Of a stretch of DNA of 12,698 nucleotides, positions 1,416-9,429 are shown piece after piece. How positions within the stretch are numbered: the stretch's first letter is position 1; each line of letters opens with the position of its first letter. Under the pieces are notes generated by a model, which was not told the DNA's origin, ran no database searches, and was given only the letters and a program-made list of their open reading frames with translations. Source of the stretch: Planctomycetota bacterium (GTDB lineage Bacteria > Planctomycetota > Phycisphaerae > Sedimentisphaerales > Anaerohalosphaeraceae). The translations under genes were made by a program, and so were the position numbers. The stretch covers positions 1 to 12,698 of the forward strand of contig QNBS01000032.1 of assembly GCA_003644175.1 (NCBI GenBank), given 5' to 3'.

Positions 1416-1988
1416 TTGAAGCAGGCTTATATTATCGCAGGACCAAACGGCAGCGGGAAGACCACTTTTGCCAGAGACTTCATCGAAGAGACAGGGCTGC
1501 CTTTTGTTAATGCGGATGACATTGCCTATAAGCTGGCCCCAGACGGGAAGTTCGAACATGTGCGAATCAAGGCCGGCAAGCTTTTTTTTCATGAATTGAA
1601 CCAGAATATCCAGCGAGGAGAGTCATTTGCTGTAGAAACCACGCTTGCCGGGAAGTATTTTTCTCGAGTCATCGGAGAGTTGAGAGCAAGTAAATACAGA
1701 ATCGTTCTTAGTTTCATTTTTGTTGAAAACGAACAGGAAGCTATCAACAGAATCAAACTGAGGGTGTTGAAAGGGGGGCATGATGTTCCGGAAGAAGATG
1801 TTAGAAGAAGATATTGGCGGAGTAAAAACAATTTCTGGAATATGTATAGAAGTTTTGTTGACGAATGGAGTCTTTTCATGAATAGCGAGGACAGTTTCTC
1901 GCTTGTTGCTGTTGGGGGAAAAGATACGTATAATATTGTAGACGACAATAACTTTGCCTGCTTTAAACGGGAAGTTGAGGGAATATAG
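1416..1988 (+). CDS. Zeta-toxin-like P-loop kinase (COG4185-type)
   Basis: This 190-residue P-loop ATPase is of the zeta-toxin/COG4185 type. The Walker A motif GPNGSGKTT is at residues 9-17, the NADD segment at 32-35 and an ETTL motif at 74-77, followed by the RVxxGGHDVPEEDVRRRY stretch (about 114-131) characteristic of this group. Classical zeta toxins phosphorylate UDP-GlcNAc and block wall synthesis; whether this subgroup does so is inference. The start is TTG at 1416, 14 bases after the fucose-synthase gene, with only a weak purine stretch upstream; it places the P-loop in the usual position. A 69-codon gene starts two bases after its stop and is the likely partner, giving a toxin-first order. 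Codons are more AT-rich than in the flanking sugar genes, consistent with acquisition as a module. Confidence 0.82.
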   Translation: MKQAYIIAGPNGSGKTTFARDFIEETGLPFVNADDIAYKLAPDGKFEHVRIKAGKLFFHELNQNIQRGESFAVETTLAGKYFSRVIGELRASKYRIVLSFIFVENEQEAINRIKLRVLKGGHDVPEEDVRRRYWRSKNNFWNMYRSFVDEWSLFMNSEDSFSLVAVGGKDTYNIVDDNNFACFKREVEGI

Positions 1989-1990
1989 GC

Positions 1991-2200
1991 ATGACGAAGA
2001 AGACTTATGAGTGGGCTCTTGAGATGGCGCGGATAGGTAATCGTGCTGTTCGCAAGGCCCAGGAAGAGAATCGCCGGTTGGGTTTGCCGAATGTGTATTC
2101 GCGCAACGGGCGGGCTTACTGGGAACTGCCGGACGGGACGTTGACGATGACGCCGCCTGAAATGTTCACAAGACCACAGGGGTCAGGCCGGAAGGCTTAA
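1991..2200 (+). CDS. Small partner protein of the zeta-like kinase (candidate antitoxin)
   Basis: This gene encodes 69 residues, starting with ATG two bases after the upstream kinase stop; its ribosome-binding site (GAGGGA) lies inside the end of that gene, so the two are probably translationally coupled. The N-terminal half is charged and probably helical (Arg/Lys/Glu-rich, residues 1-30). The middle has PNVYSRNGRAYWELPDGT (about 34-51), a pattern recalled from small proteins encoded beside zeta-like kinases. No signal peptide or membrane segment is visible. An antitoxin role is inferred from size and tight pairing only. Codons are more G-rich than in the kinase gene, which is odd for a two-gene module moving as one. 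Confidence 0.66.
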   Translation: MTKKTYEWALEMARIGNRAVRKAQEENRRLGLPNVYSRNGRAYWELPDGTLTMTPPEMFTRPQGSGRKA

Positions 2201-2218: not shown

Positions 2219-2821
2219 ATGCATGTACCTTTGCTGGATTTGAGGGCGCAGTATGAGACGATCAGGGATGAGGTTTTGGCGGGCATCAATGAGGTGCTTG
2301 ACTCGCAGCGATGTATCGGCGGGTCTAAGATTGACGAACTTGAGAAGGCTGTGGCCGAAGCGAGCGACTGTGAGTATGCCGTTGGCGTGTCGAGCGGAAC
2401 CGATGCGATATTGAATACGCTGATGAGTCTGGATATCGGGCCGGGCGATGAAGTTATTACGACGCCTTTTACGTTTTTTGCGACTGTCGGCTGCATTGCG
2501 AGGGTTTGTGCGAAGCCTGTTTTTGTCGATATCGATCCGCGGACATACAACATCAACCCCGAACTTATCGAAGCGGCGATTACCGACAAGACAAAGGCTG
2601 TTATTCCTGTGCACCTGTTCGGGCAGCCGGCGGATATGGATCCGATCATGGCGGCGGCGCTTTCGGTGAAGCTTCCTCATCTTGCCGGTTGGTCGGCGGC
2701 ACGGAGAGCCAACGCTGAGTATTATAATAATAAGTTCGCCGGCACGGTGCCGGTATATCCCGAGCTTACCGATGAGATGAAGGACTATGTGGCGGGAAAA
2801 GTTTTGTCCTTTCTTCAATAG
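2219..2821 (+). CDS. Internally deleted WlbC-like (DegT/DnrJ/EryC1/StrS) sugar aminotransferase, probably inactive
   Basis: The 200-residue product aligns with the intact 368-residue aminotransferase at 7207-8313 in three blocks. Residues 1-143 match 1-143 (about 75% identical by hand count), 145-176 match 236-267, and 177-200 match 343 to near the C-terminus. Missing are about 91 residues, including the SFFPSKN segment with the PLP-binding lysine (Lys186 in the intact copy), and about 75 residues of the C-terminal domain. Both gaps are multiples of three, so the frame stays open. The family is normally about 360-400 residues, so catalysis by this product is very unlikely. It keeps a GGAG ribosome-binding site 8 bases before ATG. 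It may be a decaying paralogue still read through, a non-catalytic partner of the intact enzyme, or an assembly collapse. Confidence 0.85.
   Translation: MHVPLLDLRAQYETIRDEVLAGINEVLDSQRCIGGSKIDELEKAVAEASDCEYAVGVSSGTDAILNTLMSLDIGPGDEVITTPFTFFATVGCIARVCAKPVFVDIDPRTYNINPELIEAAITDKTKAVIPVHLFGQPADMDPIMAAALSVKLPHLAGWSAARRANAEYYNNKFAGTVPVYPELTDEMKDYVAGKVLSFLQ
2739..2753 (+). repeat. 15-base perfect palindrome at a deletion joint
   Basis: CCGGCAC, one G, then GTGCCGG form a perfect 7-bp inverted repeat lying exactly across the second deletion joint of the shortened aminotransferase gene (codon 176/177). The intact copy at 7207-8313 has no such palindrome at either corresponding place (about 8005 and 8230). 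It may have helped, or resulted from, the deletion. Confidence 0.55.
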
Positions 2822-2836
2822 CACATTTCAAAAAGT

Positions 2837-3748
2837 ATGCCATTAAACGAAATAGTCCGAATTGCACGTCCCGGCCATTGGGTGAAGAATATCGTTGTGT
2901 TTTTTCCCGTTGTTTTCGGGATGCACGCGACCGACGGCCGGGCGTGGCTGCGGGCGCTTGGCGCTGCGGTTGCTTTTTGCTTTGCATCGAGCTTTAGCTA
3001 CATTATCAACGATATCAGAGACCGCGCCAATGATCGCTACCATCGGCGCAAGAAGGATCGGCCTCTGGCGTCCGGAAAGCTGAGTGTCTCAACCGCTGTG
3101 GCGGAGGCGACTGTGTGTGTTGTTCTGGGTTTTGCCGTCGCGTCTGCTATTTCATCTCTGTTGTGCCTGGTGATTGCAGCATATGTTGTGCTCCAGGTTT
3201 GTTATACGCTGCTGCTGAAACAGAAGGCCCTTGTCGATGTGATCTGCATTGCGATGGGTTTTGTATTGCGTACCGTTTCCGGTGCGGTGGCTATCGGCGT
3301 CGTGGTCAGCCCGTGGCTGTTTGTCTGCATGTTCACGCTATGCCTGTTTATGGGTTTCTGCAAGCGCTACAATGAGATCGTAACGATAGGCGATATGGCG
3401 CGGGCCGAGAATCACCGTAATACTTTGATCGCTTATACGCCCGATCTTCTGACGCATCTTATTACGGTTTCGGCGGGGATTGCGGTTGTCGCGTTTCTCT
3501 TTTACGGACTGGCCGACAGAACGGTTGAGCAATTCGGCACCAACTACTTTGTTTACACGCTGCCTATTGTTGTTTACGCAGTATTCAGGTTTGCGATGCT
3601 TTCGATGAACGGCAGTTATGCGGACCCCACGGATCTGTTTTTGCATGACAGGGTATTTCAGATGACGGCGTTGTTGTGGGCCGTGTCGATGATGATTATT
3701 ATTTGCCGGGGGAGAGAGTTGGCGGGCTGGATACAAGGCCTTTATTAG
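2837..3748 (+). CDS. UbiA-family prenyltransferase, decaprenyl-phosphate phosphoribosyltransferase-like
   Basis: This 303-residue polytopic membrane protein is of the UbiA superfamily. RPGHWVKN at 11-18 and the Asp-rich NDIRDRANDRYHRRKKDRP (58-76) are the pattern of decaprenyl-phosphate phosphoribosyltransferase-like members; the second polar loop KRYNEIVTIGD (176-186), followed by a conserved HRNTL, also fits that branch rather than quinone-forming UbiA. Long hydrophobic stretches fill the rest, consistent with about eight to nine helices. The expected reaction is transfer of phosphoribose from PRPP to a polyprenyl phosphate at the inner membrane, a donor for pentose in envelope polymers. 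DprE1/DprE2-type epimerases are not seen nearby. It starts 15 bases after the deleted aminotransferase, with no strong ribosome-binding site. The acceptor and donor remain inferred. Confidence 0.85.
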   Translation: MPLNEIVRIARPGHWVKNIVVFFPVVFGMHATDGRAWLRALGAAVAFCFASSFSYIINDIRDRANDRYHRRKKDRPLASGKLSVSTAVAEATVCVVLGFAVASAISSLLCLVIAAYVVLQVCYTLLLKQKALVDVICIAMGFVLRTVSGAVAIGVVVSPWLFVCMFTLCLFMGFCKRYNEIVTIGDMARAENHRNTLIAYTPDLLTHLITVSAGIAVVAFLFYGLADRTVEQFGTNYFVYTLPIVVYAVFRFAMLSMNGSYADPTDLFLHDRVFQMTALLWAVSMMIIICRGRELAGWIQGLY

Positions 3749-3845: not shown

Positions 3846-4937
3846 ATGAGCAAAGTTGCGATTTTAAGAACAAGGCCCGAGACGGTGCTGGACGACGTGC
3901 GGCAAGTTATGGAGTTGGCGGATGTAAAGGGTTCGCTGGACAGTTCGGCAACGACTATTCTTAAGAATAATCTTTCGTGGCATCTGATGTATCCCGGCGC
4001 CAATACTACGCCATGGCAACTGGAAGGTGCGATACTGGGACTTAGGGGTGCGGGATTCGATGATTTGGTTTGTGTTGAGAACGAGACTGTTGTCACCAGC
4101 GCCAAGGCGGGCGAGCTGCTGAACAAGCAAAGGCCTGTGTGCGAGTATTATGATGTGCCCATAAAGTACAACTTTAAGTCGTCCGATATGACCTGGCGGC
4201 GGTATGAGCCTGAAGCTGAGATGATGGTGCTGGACGAGATTTTTCCGGAAGGGATTTGTATTCCGGATTATTTCCACGGGAGGAATGTGGTGCATCTTCC
4301 AACAATGAAATGTCATATCTATACGAACATAACCGGTTCGATGAAAAACGCCTTCGGCGGGCTTCTTAACAATAAGCGACATTACTGCCACTCTCGGATT
4401 CACGAAACCTTAGTGGATCTGCTGGCGATCCAGAAGGAGATCCATCCGGGTATTTTTACGGTTACCGACGGTACGACGGCCGGCAACGGGGCCGGTCCGA
4501 GGACGATGATTCCGGTGGCGAAGGATATCCTTATGGCGTCGGATGATTGTGTTGCTATTGATGCCGTTGCGGCGAAGATGATGGGTTTTGAGCCGATGGA
4601 CCACAAGTTTATCCGGCTGGCGCATGAAAGAGGGCTTGGGACCGGCAAGTTCGACGAGATTGAAATAGTCGGCGATGTCGATGCGGCCGGGGAAAGGTGG
4701 GGTTTCAGTACCGGCGACAACGCAGCCTCGTGTGTCGGCAAGCTGTTCTGGTTCGGTCCGATGCGCCGGCTTGAGAAACTGATGTTTCACACGCCTCTGG
4801 TGTATGGCTTCATATTTGCTTCTGCTGTTTACCACGACAAGATATGGTATCCGTCGAACGGCAGGAAGGTTGTGAACAAATGGCTCGGAGAAAGTCCGTG
4901 GGGCAGGCTGTTTGCTGATTACAAGGTTGGCGGTTGA
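3846..4937 (+). CDS. DUF362 domain-containing protein
   Basis: This 363-residue protein carries the DUF362 signature: VVHLPTMKCHIYTNITGS at 148-165 followed by MKNAFGG and a His-rich stretch, then the VTDGTTAGNGAGPR segment and a DCVAIDAVAAKMMG motif in the C-terminal half. The ferredoxin-type Cys clusters found in some DUF362 proteins are absent; only scattered cysteines are present. A mildly hydrophobic segment lies near residues 315-330, but no signal peptide is seen. The function of the domain is not established. The gene follows the UbiA-like prenyltransferase after 97 bases, which suggests a shared membrane-lipid or polysaccharide role. The start at ATG 3846 is preceded by a purine-rich GAGAG about 12 bases upstream, somewhat far. 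No catalytic role is assigned. Confidence 0.85.
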   Translation: MSKVAILRTRPETVLDDVRQVMELADVKGSLDSSATTILKNNLSWHLMYPGANTTPWQLEGAILGLRGAGFDDLVCVENETVVTSAKAGELLNKQRPVCEYYDVPIKYNFKSSDMTWRRYEPEAEMMVLDEIFPEGICIPDYFHGRNVVHLPTMKCHIYTNITGSMKNAFGGLLNNKRHYCHSRIHETLVDLLAIQKEIHPGIFTVTDGTTAGNGAGPRTMIPVAKDILMASDDCVAIDAVAAKMMGFEPMDHKFIRLAHERGLGTGKFDEIEIVGDVDAAGERWGFSTGDNAASCVGKLFWFGPMRRLEKLMFHTPLVYGFIFASAVYHDKIWYPSNGRKVVNKWLGESPWGRLFADYKVGG

Positions 4938-4990
4938 ATCGAAATGCGTGAGTGCATATTCGAAATAGTCGTACCGTCAAATGGAGAACT

Positions 4991-5416
4991 ATGATAAAAA
5001 ATAATGATATCGGTATTCAAAGACTTTGGTGTTTATTGTCAATTTGTATAATTACGCCTATAGGTTTTTGGTTTAAATATTATAGAGGAGTTGGCGACTG
5101 GTGGTTCAATGATTATGGAGCCGGTGTGCTCTATGTGGTTTTCTGGTGCTTGTTTTTCCGCCTGATTTTTTGCAGGAAGAAAAACGCTTTAAAGATATCC
5201 GTTTGGGTATTGGTCGTAACATGCTTACTGGAAGTGCTTCAATTCTGGCACGCAGCTTTTCTGGAAATGATTCGGGCTATCTATATAGGCAGTTTATTGA
5301 TTGGGACTACTTTTGTATGGCTGGATTTGCCTCATTATGTACTTGGGGCGGTAATAGGTTTCTTTTTGATCAAGCTTCTGGAGAAAACAGGGGCAGACCA
5401 CAGGCGTCAGTTGTAG
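4991..5416 (+). CDS. DUF2809 family small membrane protein
   Basis: This 141-residue protein has about four hydrophobic segments and the conserved blocks of DUF2809 (a VanZ-like fold): GDWW at 35-38 followed by YGAGVLYVVFW, LEVLQFWH at about 80-87 followed by FLEMIRA, and GTTFVWLDLPHY near 107-118. The ATG at 4991 is preferred over the in-frame GTG at 4952 because GGAGA sits four bases before it and the extra 13 residues (basic, polar) are not family-like. The function is unknown; membrane location is evident. It lies 53 bases after the DUF362 gene and before the wlb cassette. Its codons (AAA, ATA, TTT) resemble the AT-richer block to its right rather than the genes to its left. Confidence 0.82.
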   Translation: MIKNNDIGIQRLWCLLSICIITPIGFWFKYYRGVGDWWFNDYGAGVLYVVFWCLFFRLIFCRKKNALKISVWVLVVTCLLEVLQFWHAAFLEMIRAIYIGSLLIGTTFVWLDLPHYVLGAVIGFFLIKLLEKTGADHRRQL

Positions 5417-5560: not shown

Positions 5561-6502
5561 ATGAAAAAGTTTGCTCTAATCGGCGTTGGTGGATACATCG
5601 CCCCAAGACACTTGAGAGCAATAAAAGATACCGGCCACACATTAGTCGCTGCTTTGGACAGGAGTGATTCAGTTGGCGTACTTGACAGTTATTTTCCCGA
5701 CTGCAGGTTTTTTACAGAGTTTGAGCGATTTGACAGGCATCTTGAAAAAATAAAGAGAAACGAAGATACTCGCGTTGATTACGTATCAGTTTGTTCGCCA
5801 AACTACCTTCATGATTCTCATTGCAGGTTCGGTTTGAGAATCGGTGCAGATGTGATTTGTGAAAAACCCCTGGTGGTAAATCCGTGGAATGTGGATGCTC
5901 TTGCTGAAATAGAAAAGGAGACGGGGGGTAAGATAAGCACGATTTTACAGCTTCGTCTCCATGCAGCCATTCAGGCGCTCAAGGAAAGAGTTGGCGCCGC
6001 TCCCGTCGATAAGTCCTTTGATATCGACTTGACCTATATTACCTCAAGGGGCCCATGGTATAATGTGTCATGGAAAGGTGATGTTCATAAATCCGGCGGG
6101 ATCGCCAATAATATCGGGATCCACTTTTTCGATATGCTGGCCTGGATATTTGGCCCGGTTAAGCAGAATGTAGTCCATTTGTTTGAGCCGAACAAGGCGG
6201 CGGGATTTCTTGAACTTGAAAGAGGACGCGTCAGATGGTTCCTCTCGCTTGACCGCAATGATTTGCCGTTTAAACCCGGGCCGGGTCAGCCAAAAACGTA
6301 TCGTTCTATTACGATTGACGGGCGGGAGGTCGAATTTTCAGAGGGCTTTACCGAATTACATACAGACAGTTACAGGCAGATATTGGCCGGTAACGGTTTT
6401 GGGCTTGATGATGTAAAGCCGTCTATAGAAATAGTATCGGAGATCCGAAATACAAATCCCATCGGCCTCAAGGGTGATTATCATCCGATGCTGGCAAAAT
6501 AA
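5561..6502 (+). CDS. wlbA: UDP-GlcNAcA 3-dehydrogenase (Gfo/Idh/MocA oxidoreductase), WlbA/WbpB type
   Basis: This 313-residue Gfo/Idh/MocA oxidoreductase oxidises C-3 of UDP-N-acetyl-glucosaminuronic acid with NAD+, the first dedicated step towards UDP-ManNAc3NAcA in the cytoplasm. The N-terminal nucleotide-binding motif GVGGYIAPRH is at 8-17; the EKP motif with Lys102 and the GIHFFD motif with His188 and Asp191 give the expected catalytic residues. Length matches WlbA/WbpB (about 315). The RPG-type sequence SVCSPNYLHDSH (about 85-96) is also characteristic. An AGAAAGG ribosome-binding site lies 8 bases before ATG 5561. It heads a four-gene run in the Bordetella wlbABCD order. A -10-like TATAGT at 5501-5506 lies upstream but has no convincing -35, so the promoter is unproven. 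Confidence 0.92.
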   Translation: MKKFALIGVGGYIAPRHLRAIKDTGHTLVAALDRSDSVGVLDSYFPDCRFFTEFERFDRHLEKIKRNEDTRVDYVSVCSPNYLHDSHCRFGLRIGADVICEKPLVVNPWNVDALAEIEKETGGKISTILQLRLHAAIQALKERVGAAPVDKSFDIDLTYITSRGPWYNVSWKGDVHKSGGIANNIGIHFFDMLAWIFGPVKQNVVHLFEPNKAAGFLELERGRVRWFLSLDRNDLPFKPGPGQPKTYRSITIDGREVEFSEGFTELHTDSYRQILAGNGFGLDDVKPSIEIVSEIRNTNPIGLKGDYHPMLAK

Positions 6503-6532
6503 CATCCCAAATATTATTGGAGAGGTAATAAC

Positions 6533-7210
6533 ATGGCGGCGTATTTTGTTCACGAAACAGCTGTAGTTGATGATGGAGCAGTCATTGGCGAAGGAACAAA
6601 GATATGGCATTTTTCTCATATAATGTCGGGAGCCAGGATAGGCCAAAAATGTATTTTTGGTCAGAATGTATGTATAGCCGCCGGAGTGATTATCGGCAAC
6701 AATGTTAAAGTGCAGAACAATGTTTCAATATACACCGGGGCGGTCATTGAAGATGATGTTTTTCTGGGTCCCAGTTGTGTGCTTACAAATGTTACCAATC
6801 CTCGCTCTCAGGTCGTTCGTCACAGCCTCTATGAAAAGACTGTTTTTAGAAGAGGGACAACGGTAGGGGCAAACGCCACGATAGTTTGTGGCATCGAGCT
6901 TGGGCGGTACAGTTTTATTGCCGCCGGTTGTGTTGTCGCAAAGGATGTGCCGGACTATGCGCTTATGGCGGGTGTGCCCGCTCGACAGGCCGGCTGGATG
7001 AGTCGGCATGGAATTAAACTCGGCGCCCCTGATGCAGAAGGCATTATGCTTTGTCCCGAAAGCGGCTATCGTTACAAAGAGGTAGCCCCCGGCATTGTCA
7101 AATGTTTGGATCTTGATGAGGAGTCCCCGTTGCCGGAGGACAAAGCGGTCGGCAAAACATCTTACGATGAATTCAAGAATAAGATTAACTCGTTAAAAGG
7201 ATATTTATGA
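6533..7210 (+). CDS. wlbB: UDP-GlcNAc3NA N-acetyltransferase (left-handed beta-helix), WlbB/WbpD type
   Basis: This 225-residue hexapeptide-repeat acyltransferase is expected to acetylate the 3-amino group made by the aminotransferase encoded next, giving UDP-2,3-diacetamido-glucuronic acid. Repeats of the [IV]-G-x4 type run from about residue 12 to 150 (VIGEGTKIWHFSHI, IGQKCIFGQNV, IIGNNVKVQNNV, VGANATIV), broken by a loop around LTNVTNPR as in the WlbB/WbpD group. After the helix a roughly 65-residue tail carries CPESGYRY (Cys174) and Cys191 with an acidic stretch, a tail recalled from longer family members. A strong GGAGAGG site lies 7 bases before ATG 6533. The stop overlaps the next start (ATGA), so translation is coupled to wlbC. 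Confidence 0.92.
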   Translation: MAAYFVHETAVVDDGAVIGEGTKIWHFSHIMSGARIGQKCIFGQNVCIAAGVIIGNNVKVQNNVSIYTGAVIEDDVFLGPSCVLTNVTNPRSQVVRHSLYEKTVFRRGTTVGANATIVCGIELGRYSFIAAGCVVAKDVPDYALMAGVPARQAGWMSRHGIKLGAPDAEGIMLCPESGYRYKEVAPGIVKCLDLDEESPLPEDKAVGKTSYDEFKNKINSLKGYL

Positions 7211-8313
7211 AAGTTCCGCTATTAGATCTGCAGGCTCAGTATGCCGGCATAGAAAATGAGGTAATGGCTGCCGTATCCGAAGTGCTGAAAACACAGAGAT
7301 GTATTGGAGGCCCAAAGGTTGCCGAACTTGAAGAGAAAATTGCCGCCGCCAGCAACTGTAAAATTGCCGTAGGCGTATCCAGCGGCACCGATGCAATTTT
7401 AAACGTTCTAATGAGCCTGGATATTGGACCCGGCGACGAAGTGATAACCACACCGTTCACTTTTTTTGCGACAGTCGGTTGTATCGCCCGTACCGGCGCA
7501 AGGCCGGTGTTTGTAGATATTGATCCCAAAACATACAACATAGATCCTTCTTTAATAGAGGAAAAAATTTCCGACAAGACAAAGGCGATCATGCCGGTGC
7601 ATCTTTTTGGTCAGATGGCCGACATGGACCCGATCACAGAGATCGCCAAGAAACATGCCCTTCCTGTAATAGAAGATGCCGCTCAGTCCATAACGAGCAG
7701 GTATAAAGATAAAACGGCGGGCAGCATCGGCACTGCCGGATGCTTTAGCTTTTTTCCAAGCAAAAACCTCGGCGGCATTGGCGACGGCGGGATGATAGTG
7801 ACCAATGACGAGGAGTTTTACGAAAAGCTTGCCATAATGCGAAATCACGGCAGCAAGCCAAAATACTACCACAAGCTTGTCGGCGGCAATTTCCGTCTTG
7901 ATCCGATACAGGCCGCCGCTCTTCTGGTAAAACTTCCGCACCTGGACGAATGGTCAAAAGCCCGCCGCAAAAACGCGAAATATTATAACAGCAGATTTTC
8001 GGGAACAGATATTCAAACGCCTTATATAAATCCGGATTGCGTTACAATTTACAATCAGTATGTGATCAGAGCGGCAAAGCGCGACGAACTGATGTCGCAC
8101 TTAAAAGAAAACCAGATTGGTTGCGAAATCTACTACCCGGCGCCAATACACTTGCAGGAATGTTTCAGTTCTCTCGGCTACAAGCAGGGAGATTTTCCGA
8201 ACGCAGAAGAAGCGGCCAATGAAGTATTGGCGCTGCCGGTTTATCCCGAGCTAACCGACGAGATGAAAGACTATGTGGCTGATACAGTCCTTTCGTTTGG
8301 AAGTGGGGATTAA
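7207..8313 (+). CDS. wlbC: UDP-3-keto-GlcNAcA aminotransferase (PLP, DegT family), WlbC/WbpE type
   Basis: This full-length 368-residue DegT/DnrJ/EryC1/StrS aminotransferase transfers an amino group, normally from glutamate, to the 3-keto sugar made by WlbA. Seen in the sequence: GVSSGTDA (about 56-63) and PFTFFATVG (about 82-90) of the cofactor pocket, EDAAQ (about 156-160) with the PLP-ring aspartate, and SFFPSKNLGGIGDGG with Lys186 as the Schiff-base lysine. The C-terminal domain ends in PVYPELTDEMKDYV. The gene overlaps wlbB by four bases and has AAGGA 7 bases upstream of ATG. A second copy lacking two internal pieces lies at 2219-2821. The copies differ strongly in codon choice, so they are not a recent tandem duplication. 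Confidence 0.94.
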   Translation: MKVPLLDLQAQYAGIENEVMAAVSEVLKTQRCIGGPKVAELEEKIAAASNCKIAVGVSSGTDAILNVLMSLDIGPGDEVITTPFTFFATVGCIARTGARPVFVDIDPKTYNIDPSLIEEKISDKTKAIMPVHLFGQMADMDPITEIAKKHALPVIEDAAQSITSRYKDKTAGSIGTAGCFSFFPSKNLGGIGDGGMIVTNDEEFYEKLAIMRNHGSKPKYYHKLVGGNFRLDPIQAAALLVKLPHLDEWSKARRKNAKYYNSRFSGTDIQTPYINPDCVTIYNQYVIRAAKRDELMSHLKENQIGCEIYYPAPIHLQECFSSLGYKQGDFPNAEEAANEVLALPVYPELTDEMKDYVADTVLSFGSGD

Positions 8314-8316
8314 AAG

Positions 8317-9429
8317 GTGAGAAAAATAAAAATCCTCACAGTTGTAGGCGCCAGACCCCAGTTTATAAAAGCGGCGGCGCTAAGCAGAGCAATTAAAAAG
8401 TTTAACAACAACAGCGATTCCATTAAGGTTGAAGAGTCAATTGTTCATACCGGCCAGCACTACGACGACAACATGAGTAAAATATTCTTTGATCAGCTAA
8501 AAATACCGCATCCCGAAATCAACCTGGAGGTAGGTTCCGGGTTGCATGGAAAACAGACCGGTATGATGCTCGAAAAACTTGAAGAGGTGGCGATAGATAA
8601 AAAGCCCGACTGGATGCTGATTTACGGCGATACAAATTCAACACTTGCAGCCGCCATTGCTGCGTCAAAACTGCATATCCCCATTGCACATGTCGAAGCG
8701 GGACTGCGGTCCTTTAATCGCAAAATGCCGGAAGAAGTAAACCGTGTAGTTGCGGACCATCTCTCCAGAATTCTTCTTTGCCCGACTGATACCGCCGTCA
8801 AAAATCTATCGAACGAAGGAATTACAGACAGGGTGTATCAGATCGGCGATGTGATGTATGATTCGGTGTTATTTAATTTTAAGTTAGCGGTTGGCGGCAG
8901 TAATATTATTGAACAATTAGGACTTGTGTCCGGGCAGTATTATCTTGCTACAATACATAGAGCAGAAAATACCGACGAACCACAGAGGCTGCAAAATATA
9001 ATAAATGCATTTTCGCAGATAGATGCGACTATCGTATTGCCGCTTCATCCAAGGACAAAAAATACACTGGGTGTCAGCTTAAAGAAATTAGCCGGTAATG
9101 TTTTAATTACCGCTCCGGTTGCATATTTAGACATGTTAATGCTGGAAAAAAATGCGTCTGTAATTCTTACAGATTCCGGAGGGGTCCAGAAAGAAGCTTA
9201 CTGGGCGTCTGTCCCCTGTATTACATTACGCGATGAGACCGAATGGATAGAACTTGTTGACGCCGGAGTAAATCAGATCGCCGGAGCAGATACTGCTGCG
9301 ATACTTGACGCTGTAGAGAAAGTCGGACAAGTTGCAGACAGACTCAAATCCACCAATACCCGGCTATACGGCGATGGAAACACCGCAGAAAAAATCGTCG
9401 AAAAACTAGTTTTTAGCAGTAGTCTATAG
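8317..9429 (+). CDS. wlbD: UDP-GlcNAc3NAcA 2-epimerase (non-hydrolysing), WlbD/WbpI type
   Basis: This 370-residue non-hydrolysing UDP-GlcNAc 2-epimerase-family protein, by context, inverts C-2 of UDP-2,3-diacetamido-glucuronic acid to give UDP-ManNAc3NAcA. VGARPQFIK at 10-18 (Arg13), Asp105 in YGDTNST, Glu127 in HVEAGLR, Glu139 in PEEVNR and His214 in TIHRAEN correspond to the known catalytic and binding residues of E. coli WecB. The LTDSGGVQKEA segment near residue 285 binds the nucleotide. The start is GTG at 8317, three bases after the wlbC stop, with AAAAGG overlapping the gap. On sequence alone it could be a plain UDP-GlcNAc 2-epimerase (WecB); the wlbABC neighbours make WlbD more likely. 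Confidence 0.9.
   Translation: MRKIKILTVVGARPQFIKAAALSRAIKKFNNNSDSIKVEESIVHTGQHYDDNMSKIFFDQLKIPHPEINLEVGSGLHGKQTGMMLEKLEEVAIDKKPDWMLIYGDTNSTLAAAIAASKLHIPIAHVEAGLRSFNRKMPEEVNRVVADHLSRILLCPTDTAVKNLSNEGITDRVYQIGDVMYDSVLFNFKLAVGGSNIIEQLGLVSGQYYLATIHRAENTDEPQRLQNIINAFSQIDATIVLPLHPRTKNTLGVSLKKLAGNVLITAPVAYLDMLMLEKNASVILTDSGGVQKEAYWASVPCITLRDETEWIELVDAGVNQIAGADTAAILDAVEKVGQVADRLKSTNTRLYGDGNTAEKIVEKLVFSSSL

Follow-up and report, generated by a model that had tools for sequence, protein, structure and literature searches.

Two genes for WlbC/WbpE-like aminotransferases lie in the window analyzed here, the whole stretch of 12,698 nucleotides of a Planctomycetota bacterium. One of them is intact, whereas the other encodes only 200 residues and still has an open reading frame, a start codon and a normal C-terminal end. 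What is the short gene: a working enzyme, a short protein kept for some other role, an error of assembly, or the remnant of a gene that has decayed? In this study, we compared the short gene with the second copy in the window, with its positional counterpart in a genome of the same genus, and with homologues from other relatives.

Structure of the short gene and its missing segments

The short ORF (2219-2821, + strand) encodes a WlbC/WbpE-like protein of 200 aa with a match to PF01041, and we read it as probably a decayed resident aminotransferase gene. When the window's own genome was searched with the intact copy (7207-8313) as query, the short gene was returned as three collinear pieces, corresponding to residues 1-143 of the intact copy (2219-2647, 76% identity), residues 231-267 (2636-2746, 70% identity) and residues 343-364 (2747-2812, 86% identity). 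Three retained blocks, all on the + strand, could be delimited by similarity to the intact copies: block 1 with residues 1-143 (2219-2647); block 2 with residues 144-176, equal to residues 235-267 of the intact copy (2648-2746); and block 3, the C-terminal end (2750-2821), which was placed from the ORF as well as from similarity and whose stop codon lies 15 bp before the start of ubiA. The preliminary description of this DNA had reported that codons 144-234 (91 codons) and 268-342 (75 codons) were missing in comparison with the intact copy, and the three-piece match bore this out; gaps of the same two sizes were found against the same-genus orthologue. The copy at 7207-8313, which had served as the yardstick in that description, was adequate for the coordinates and sizes of the gaps, but the proper comparison is with the syntenic orthologue from the same genus (see below). 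The other features read from the letters also held: the frame, the start codon and the C-terminal end are kept, a ribosome-binding-like stretch, AGGGAATGGAG, stands upstream of the start (read by eye), and no internal stop or frameshift was found within 2219-2821.

The PF01041 match of the short ORF covered profile positions 3-134 of 360, which is the first third, and the full domain is not present. In comparison, the intact copy matched positions 3-359, nearly end to end. The deleted segment contains D157 and Q160, which were invariant in a 49-row alignment, as well as S185-K186-N187, which were at least 90% conserved in the same alignment (numbering of the intact copy). K186 is probably the lysine that binds the pyridoxal phosphate (PLP) cofactor, judging from the WbpE K185A entry 3nys (known by its entry title) and an offset of one residue taken from the start of the WbpE match. 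A catalytic PLP lysine was therefore not found in the short ORF, given that the segment with this presumed lysine is gone, in agreement with the earlier statement that it fell within the first gap. With D157, Q160 and K186 lost, and considering established knowledge of the family, activity as a WbpE/WlbC-type aminotransferase is ruled out on the basis of sequence; a binding protein would be possible but is unsupported.

With regard to predicted fold, the model of the short protein had a pLDDT of 77.0, a pTM of 0.49 and three strands, and deletion 1 was predicted to fuse two helices into one long helix (residues 135-172). The model of the intact copy had a pLDDT of 94.6, a pTM of 0.93 and seven strands before residue 200. 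Three of these strands (154-157, 177-181 and 195-199) are deleted in the short protein and a further one (53-57) was not predicted, and the compact large domain with a seven-stranded sheet was not recovered. A Foldseek search with the short model gave WbpE entries as the best matches by E-value, with TM scores of 0.36-0.39 by query length (0.39 for the top one, rmsd 13.0), and the highest TM score shown was 0.47 (7b0d). WbpE entries were among the best solved matches of both window copies. Thus, the short ORF is similar to WbpE (WlbE/WlbC), a 3-aminotransferase of the DegT/DnrJ/EryC1/StrS family (PF01041), in sequence family and in its N-terminal part, whereas it differs from this enzyme in lacking the lysine segment, D157, Q160 and four of the seven predicted strands.

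Intact syntenic orthologue in the same genus

The window belongs to a genome bin of 405 contigs (2.51 Mb, 76.56% complete). In a genome of the same genus (G001, locus L028 on contig C129), an intact wlbC of 366 aa was found at the same place (6102-7202), as would be expected if the short ORF were a gene remnant. The order in L028 is an fcl-like gene, a gap of 39 bp, the intact wlbC, a gap of 15 bp and ubiA. DNA identity between the window and L028 was 91% over 1-1371, 85% over 2199-2659, 88% over 2637-2748 and 93% over 2750-2899. By this comparison, the short ORF did not arise by shortening of the 7207-8313 copy; it is a resident gene whose orthologue is intact elsewhere. A protein of 216 aa encoded on another contig (P0002) is even nearer to the short protein than the same-genus gene product is (11 differences in 143 residues), and continues past block 1 into the segment removed by deletion 1, ending near reference residue 206. 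In a genome of the same family (G014), the gene at the resident place is intact as well, and no wlbC intervenes between wlbB and the epimerase-like gene that comes after it; gene names in G014 were given by eye and by similarity to the window.

The left neighbor, a GDP-fucose-synthase-like gene (fcl; 448-1401, +), scored 296 bits, below the cut-off of 500, and is syntenic in the same-genus genome with 91.6% DNA identity. A further stretch of the window (1416-2200, +) is absent at this place in the same-genus genome. It comprises a gene for a zeta-toxin-like kinase (1416-1988; PF06414, 32.2 bits, cut-off 22.3) and an ORF of 69 aa (1991-2200) for which no Pfam match was found. This stretch had matches in 9 of 59 genomes, its own included, and is possibly a mobile toxin-antitoxin pair. 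At the left end of the window, positions 6-404 resemble an MntA-like nucleotidyltransferase antitoxin (52.2 bits, cut-off 60), and the L028 ORF at 4274-4696, just before the counterpart of 6-404, may presumably encode a HepT-type partner.

Origin of the two deletions

At junction 1 (2637-2659, +), where 91 codons are missing in comparison with the same-genus gene, a short direct repeat is seen (MDPIMAxA / LDPIQAxA). The two ends of deletion 1 in the same-genus gene are alike at 19 of 23 bp and lie 273 bp apart and in phase, which is the size of the loss; none of the other pairs compared in that gene (234,178 in all, with spacings of 150-450 bp) was as good. Of the window's 23 bp at this junction, 22 match the left side and 18 match the right side. 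The repeat exists because two helices start with similar residues, MDPIMA and LDPIQA. The same two stretches were alike at 10 to 18 of 23 positions in 22 other homologues, the partial gene of G020 included, and by this measure the repeat is unusually good in the window's genus.

It had been argued previously that two random deletions would both stay in frame only about one time in nine. This argument fails, since deletion 1 runs between two in-phase repeats and repeats of this kind are mostly in phase. Among 22 intact genes, repeats of at least 17 of 23 bp at spacings of at least 60 bp were in phase in 115 of 126 pairs, which include overlapping pairs and one duplicate genome and are therefore not independent (the partial gene of G020 was left out). 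The in-frame outcome of deletion 1 is therefore expected.

Junction 2 (2739-2753, +), where 75 codons are missing, was also compared with the same-genus gene. No bases shared between its two sides were seen in that gene, and one window base at the junction matches neither side (both read by eye). The joined sequence at 2739-2753 forms a perfect 7+1+7 palindrome by eye, probably by chance.

RecA-independent deletion between short direct repeats is known in Escherichia coli (PMC5426353). Deletion 1 resembles bacterial gene remnants formed by deletion of this kind, in that exactly one repeat distance was lost and one repeat-like copy was left. On the other hand, the short gene differs from them in having two deletions, both in frame and the second without visible repeats, and we infer its mechanism.

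Selection on the retained blocks

The dN/dS ratio of the retained blocks, whose calculation had been proposed as a check, was 0.101 between the short gene and the same-genus gene over 200 codons (dS 0.56; 25 nonsynonymous and 55 synonymous differences). Ratios of 0.057-0.101 were obtained for six pairs of intact genes (dS 0.27 to 2.3), and the ratio between the short gene and the G014 gene was 0.084, while three pairs with the 7207 copy were saturated. When changes were polarised by G014 and by the majority, 11 nonsynonymous and 17 synonymous changes fell on the short branch and 10 and 11, respectively, on the other branch (Fisher p 0.58 between branches), with 2 changes unassigned on one count and 19 on the other. 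At sites conserved in 90% of the other genes, the short gene departed at 5 of 118, two of which were common to the same-genus gene; departures at the same sites in other genes ranged from 0 to 12. Thus, relaxed selection, which would be looked for in a remnant, was not seen in the retained blocks by dN/dS, polarised changes or conserved sites. The ratio suggests constraint, but it does not tell decay from retention: either the loss would be recent or the product would be kept. Since relaxed selection was not seen, and since the power of such comparisons is low if the loss is recent, the short gene is considered here as most likely a remnant and not as a proven pseudogene.

Distribution of the short form among relatives

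Open frames were compared by length in 58 relatives and the window's own genome, among the matches listed. No open frame near 200 aa was found in the relatives among these matches, except at contig ends. The short frames of G028, G022, G010 and G004 run to contig ends and that of G020 ends with its contig, while for G055 and G030 placement at a contig end was deduced from coordinates.

Two protein searches were also carried out, both of which admitted proteins of 110-350 aa only and left out the intact 366-aa genes by design, so that no frequencies can be drawn from them. Among the best 120 of 7913 matches of the short-protein search, no other protein covered more than 91% of the query, and among the best 120 of 478 matches of the junction-centered search no other covered more than 78%. 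Both flanking motifs were present in order in 113 of 234 proteins from the listed matches. A spacing of 8 residues between them was found in the window's own protein only (1 of the 113 listed), and the other 112 had spacings of 51 to 109. The search for homologues with the same 200-residue architecture, which the preliminary description had recommended, therefore gave none among the matches listed beyond the window's own. The short form is not shared by relatives among these matches, as would be expected of a remnant, and it is this absence that stands as evidence against retention.

Ten homologues besides the window's own, among the 120 listed, had in-frame gaps of at least 10 residues, and six of the ten reach reference residue 364 or 365. 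Another 18 of the 120 had an unaligned tail of at least 10 residues, as after a frameshift or in a mis-joined contig, and 80 were plainly truncated. The gapped and tailed homologues look like sporadic losses or assembly errors. Six wlbC-like proteins (P0004, P0022, P0023, P0062, P0098 and P0099) reach the C-terminal end with different in-frame gaps of 11-77 residues, and the gaps of P0023 and P0098 take in the region of the PLP lysine. Such short DegT-family homologues (for example, P0004, P0023 and P0098) are similar to the short ORF in having in-frame internal losses and reaching the C-terminal end, whereas each of them has its own end points and none has the architecture found in the window.

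Descent of the second copy and its sugar cluster

The second WlbC/WbpE-like aminotransferase gene (7207-8313, +; 368 aa) is intact according to its PF01041 match, its WbpE match and its model. As in the WbpE pathway, it sits with oxidoreductase-, acetyltransferase- and 2-epimerase-like genes: a WlbA/WbpB-like oxidoreductase (5561-6502, +; sugar-dehydrogenase models, all below cut-off, role from context), a WlbB/WbpD-like acetyltransferase (6533-7210, +; hexapeptide acetyltransferase models, those shown below cut-off, role from context) and a WecB-type UDP-GlcNAc 2-epimerase (8317-9429, +; TIGR00236, 321.2 bits against a cut-off of 210.15). The Wlb names are those which we take to apply to these genes in the window. 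The region 5561-9429 appears to be in keeping with a pathway for UDP-2,3-diacetamido-mannuronic acid, in which only the epimerase passes a curated cut-off. WbpE aminates the C3 keto group of UDP-3-keto-GlcNAcA toward the diacetamido sugar (PMC10622841). A DUF362 protein (3846-4937) and a DUF2809 protein (4952-5416) are also encoded inside the sugar cluster.

Trees of 24 sequences were built in three versions (retained columns, all columns and nucleotides). The partial gene of G020 was kept in this set, the rows of G052 and RS9 are identical and look like one genome present twice, and L031-L033 were the only ones taken from the 80 named loci (L030 is a contig of G001). The short gene paired with the same-genus gene with support of 0.985, 0.997 and 1.000 in the three versions, respectively. 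The 7207 copy fell near sequences from other families of the order, its exact place being weak (0.27, 0.80 and 0.08). By these trees, the two window copies fall in different clades and are of different descent. Recent duplication of the 7207 copy, or a collapse with it, was rejected, as the clades differ and so do about a quarter of the residues; the latter difference had already been held against mixing with this copy, and the trees add to it.

When 59 genomes were searched with the short protein, the window's own genome was the only one to show two matches above 200 bits among the matches listed. Cover for the lost function would come from the second intact family member in the cluster, whose substrate is presumed to be alike. 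A close wlbB (E 6e-100 or better) was present in 15 of 39 relatives and was right beside wlbC in 11 of these 15, the others being G007, G013, G014 and G015. Judging from these placements, the window has both arrangements, and it is the resident-place gene that suffered the deletions.

The right neighbor of the short gene encodes a UbiA-family prenyltransferase (2837-3748, +; profile matches). Within its first 60 aligned bases it is 93% identical to the same-genus gene. Beyond a break at about 2897, some 76 bp past the stop of the short gene, identity is 68%, and this second part is about as distant from G014 (67%) as from the same-genus gene. The break looks like a boundary of exchange or recombination, in the lineage of either the window or G001. 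It fits, without proving, an exchange in which the right-hand genes of the cluster gave way to a version with a wlbC of its own.

Discussion

Our results suggest that the short ORF is, with good probability, a recent remnant of a redundant resident gene, produced by ordinary gene decay. Recent decay, a selected short subunit and an assembly collapse had been offered as three possible readings; the first is the best supported, the second is unsupported and the third is unlikely. We observed two deletions, an intact orthologue in syntenic position, a second intact copy and the repeat at junction 1, and the form was not seen elsewhere among the matches listed; the loss of the lysine segment and of predicted strands adds to the support for decay.

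In the order of events that we infer, the product of the resident gene would have been the 3-aminotransferase which, like WbpE, aminates a 3-keto sugar in the synthesis of a nucleotide sugar. The wlbA-wlbB-wlbC-wecB block to the right contains a wlbC from a different lineage, which was either acquired or present there for a long time and would have made the resident copy redundant, and this redundancy may be the cause of the loss. Short-homology deletion between MDPIMAxA and LDPIQAxA, the two in-phase repeats, would then have removed 273 bp, and a second event with no clear homology another 225 bp, leaving a gene that presumably has no function. Deletion 2 might be in frame by a one-in-three chance; or a polarity effect might be involved, since ubiA starts 15 bp after the stop codon of the short gene and a loss that shifts the frame would end translation shortly before it. 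Some findings count against this story. Relaxed selection was not seen in the retained blocks, and the short gene has neither a frameshift nor an internal stop. The same-genus genome has wlbC but gave no close match to wlbB (best E 4.2e-4; its bin is 89% complete). The drop of identity within ubiA may belong to the lineage of either genome.

An artefact of assembly or library, in which the true gene is full-length and the contig lost two pieces, appears unlikely, although the bin is fragmented and incomplete and the ten gapped homologues among the 120 listed could be errors of the same kind. With the same-genus gene as a stand-in for the ancestor, junction 2 has no shared bases and junction 1 is an imperfect 23-bp repeat, and with homology so short or absent the usual assemblers would hardly make a false join. 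The bin gave no intact allele of the resident gene, and the 200-aa protein is present on 2 contigs, though possibly from the same reads. A small control, in which 20 own contigs and the window were compared with 21 contigs of G001, gave 15 ORF pairs, some of them antisense, and flagged three: the short gene, with its internal shortening, and two other length differences, too few to be firm.

It is quite improbable that the short protein was retained, for example as a non-catalytic partner of the intact WlbC enzyme or as a dominant-negative regulator. The preserved frame, start, ribosome-binding-like stretch and C-terminus, the apparent constraint on the retained blocks and the single fused helix predicted at 135-172 are all what such a protein might show, but the repeat accounts for deletion 1 being in frame, the form is in no relative among the matches listed, and the predicted fold is weak (pTM 0.49, TM scores as above). 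Moreover, the presumed partner differs at about a quarter of residues and belongs to another clade. Slightly less probable again is the specific proposal that the two in-frame deletions made a small helical protein that binds intact WlbC and tunes sugar synthesis; if true, it would add a new example of deletions turning an enzyme into a regulator. Finally, a collapse between other near-identical copies is unlikely, since no bases common to both sides of junction 2 were seen in the same-genus gene, and a collapse with the neighboring 7207 copy is very unlikely, since the two copies are in different clades.

For annotation, the 200-aa protein is better labeled a likely remnant than an aminotransferase. 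In-frame deletions need not signal selection, because most repeats within this coding sequence are in phase. The locus may represent a snapshot of gene replacement in a sugar cluster, in which the resident gene is partly deleted and a copy from another lineage lies nearby.
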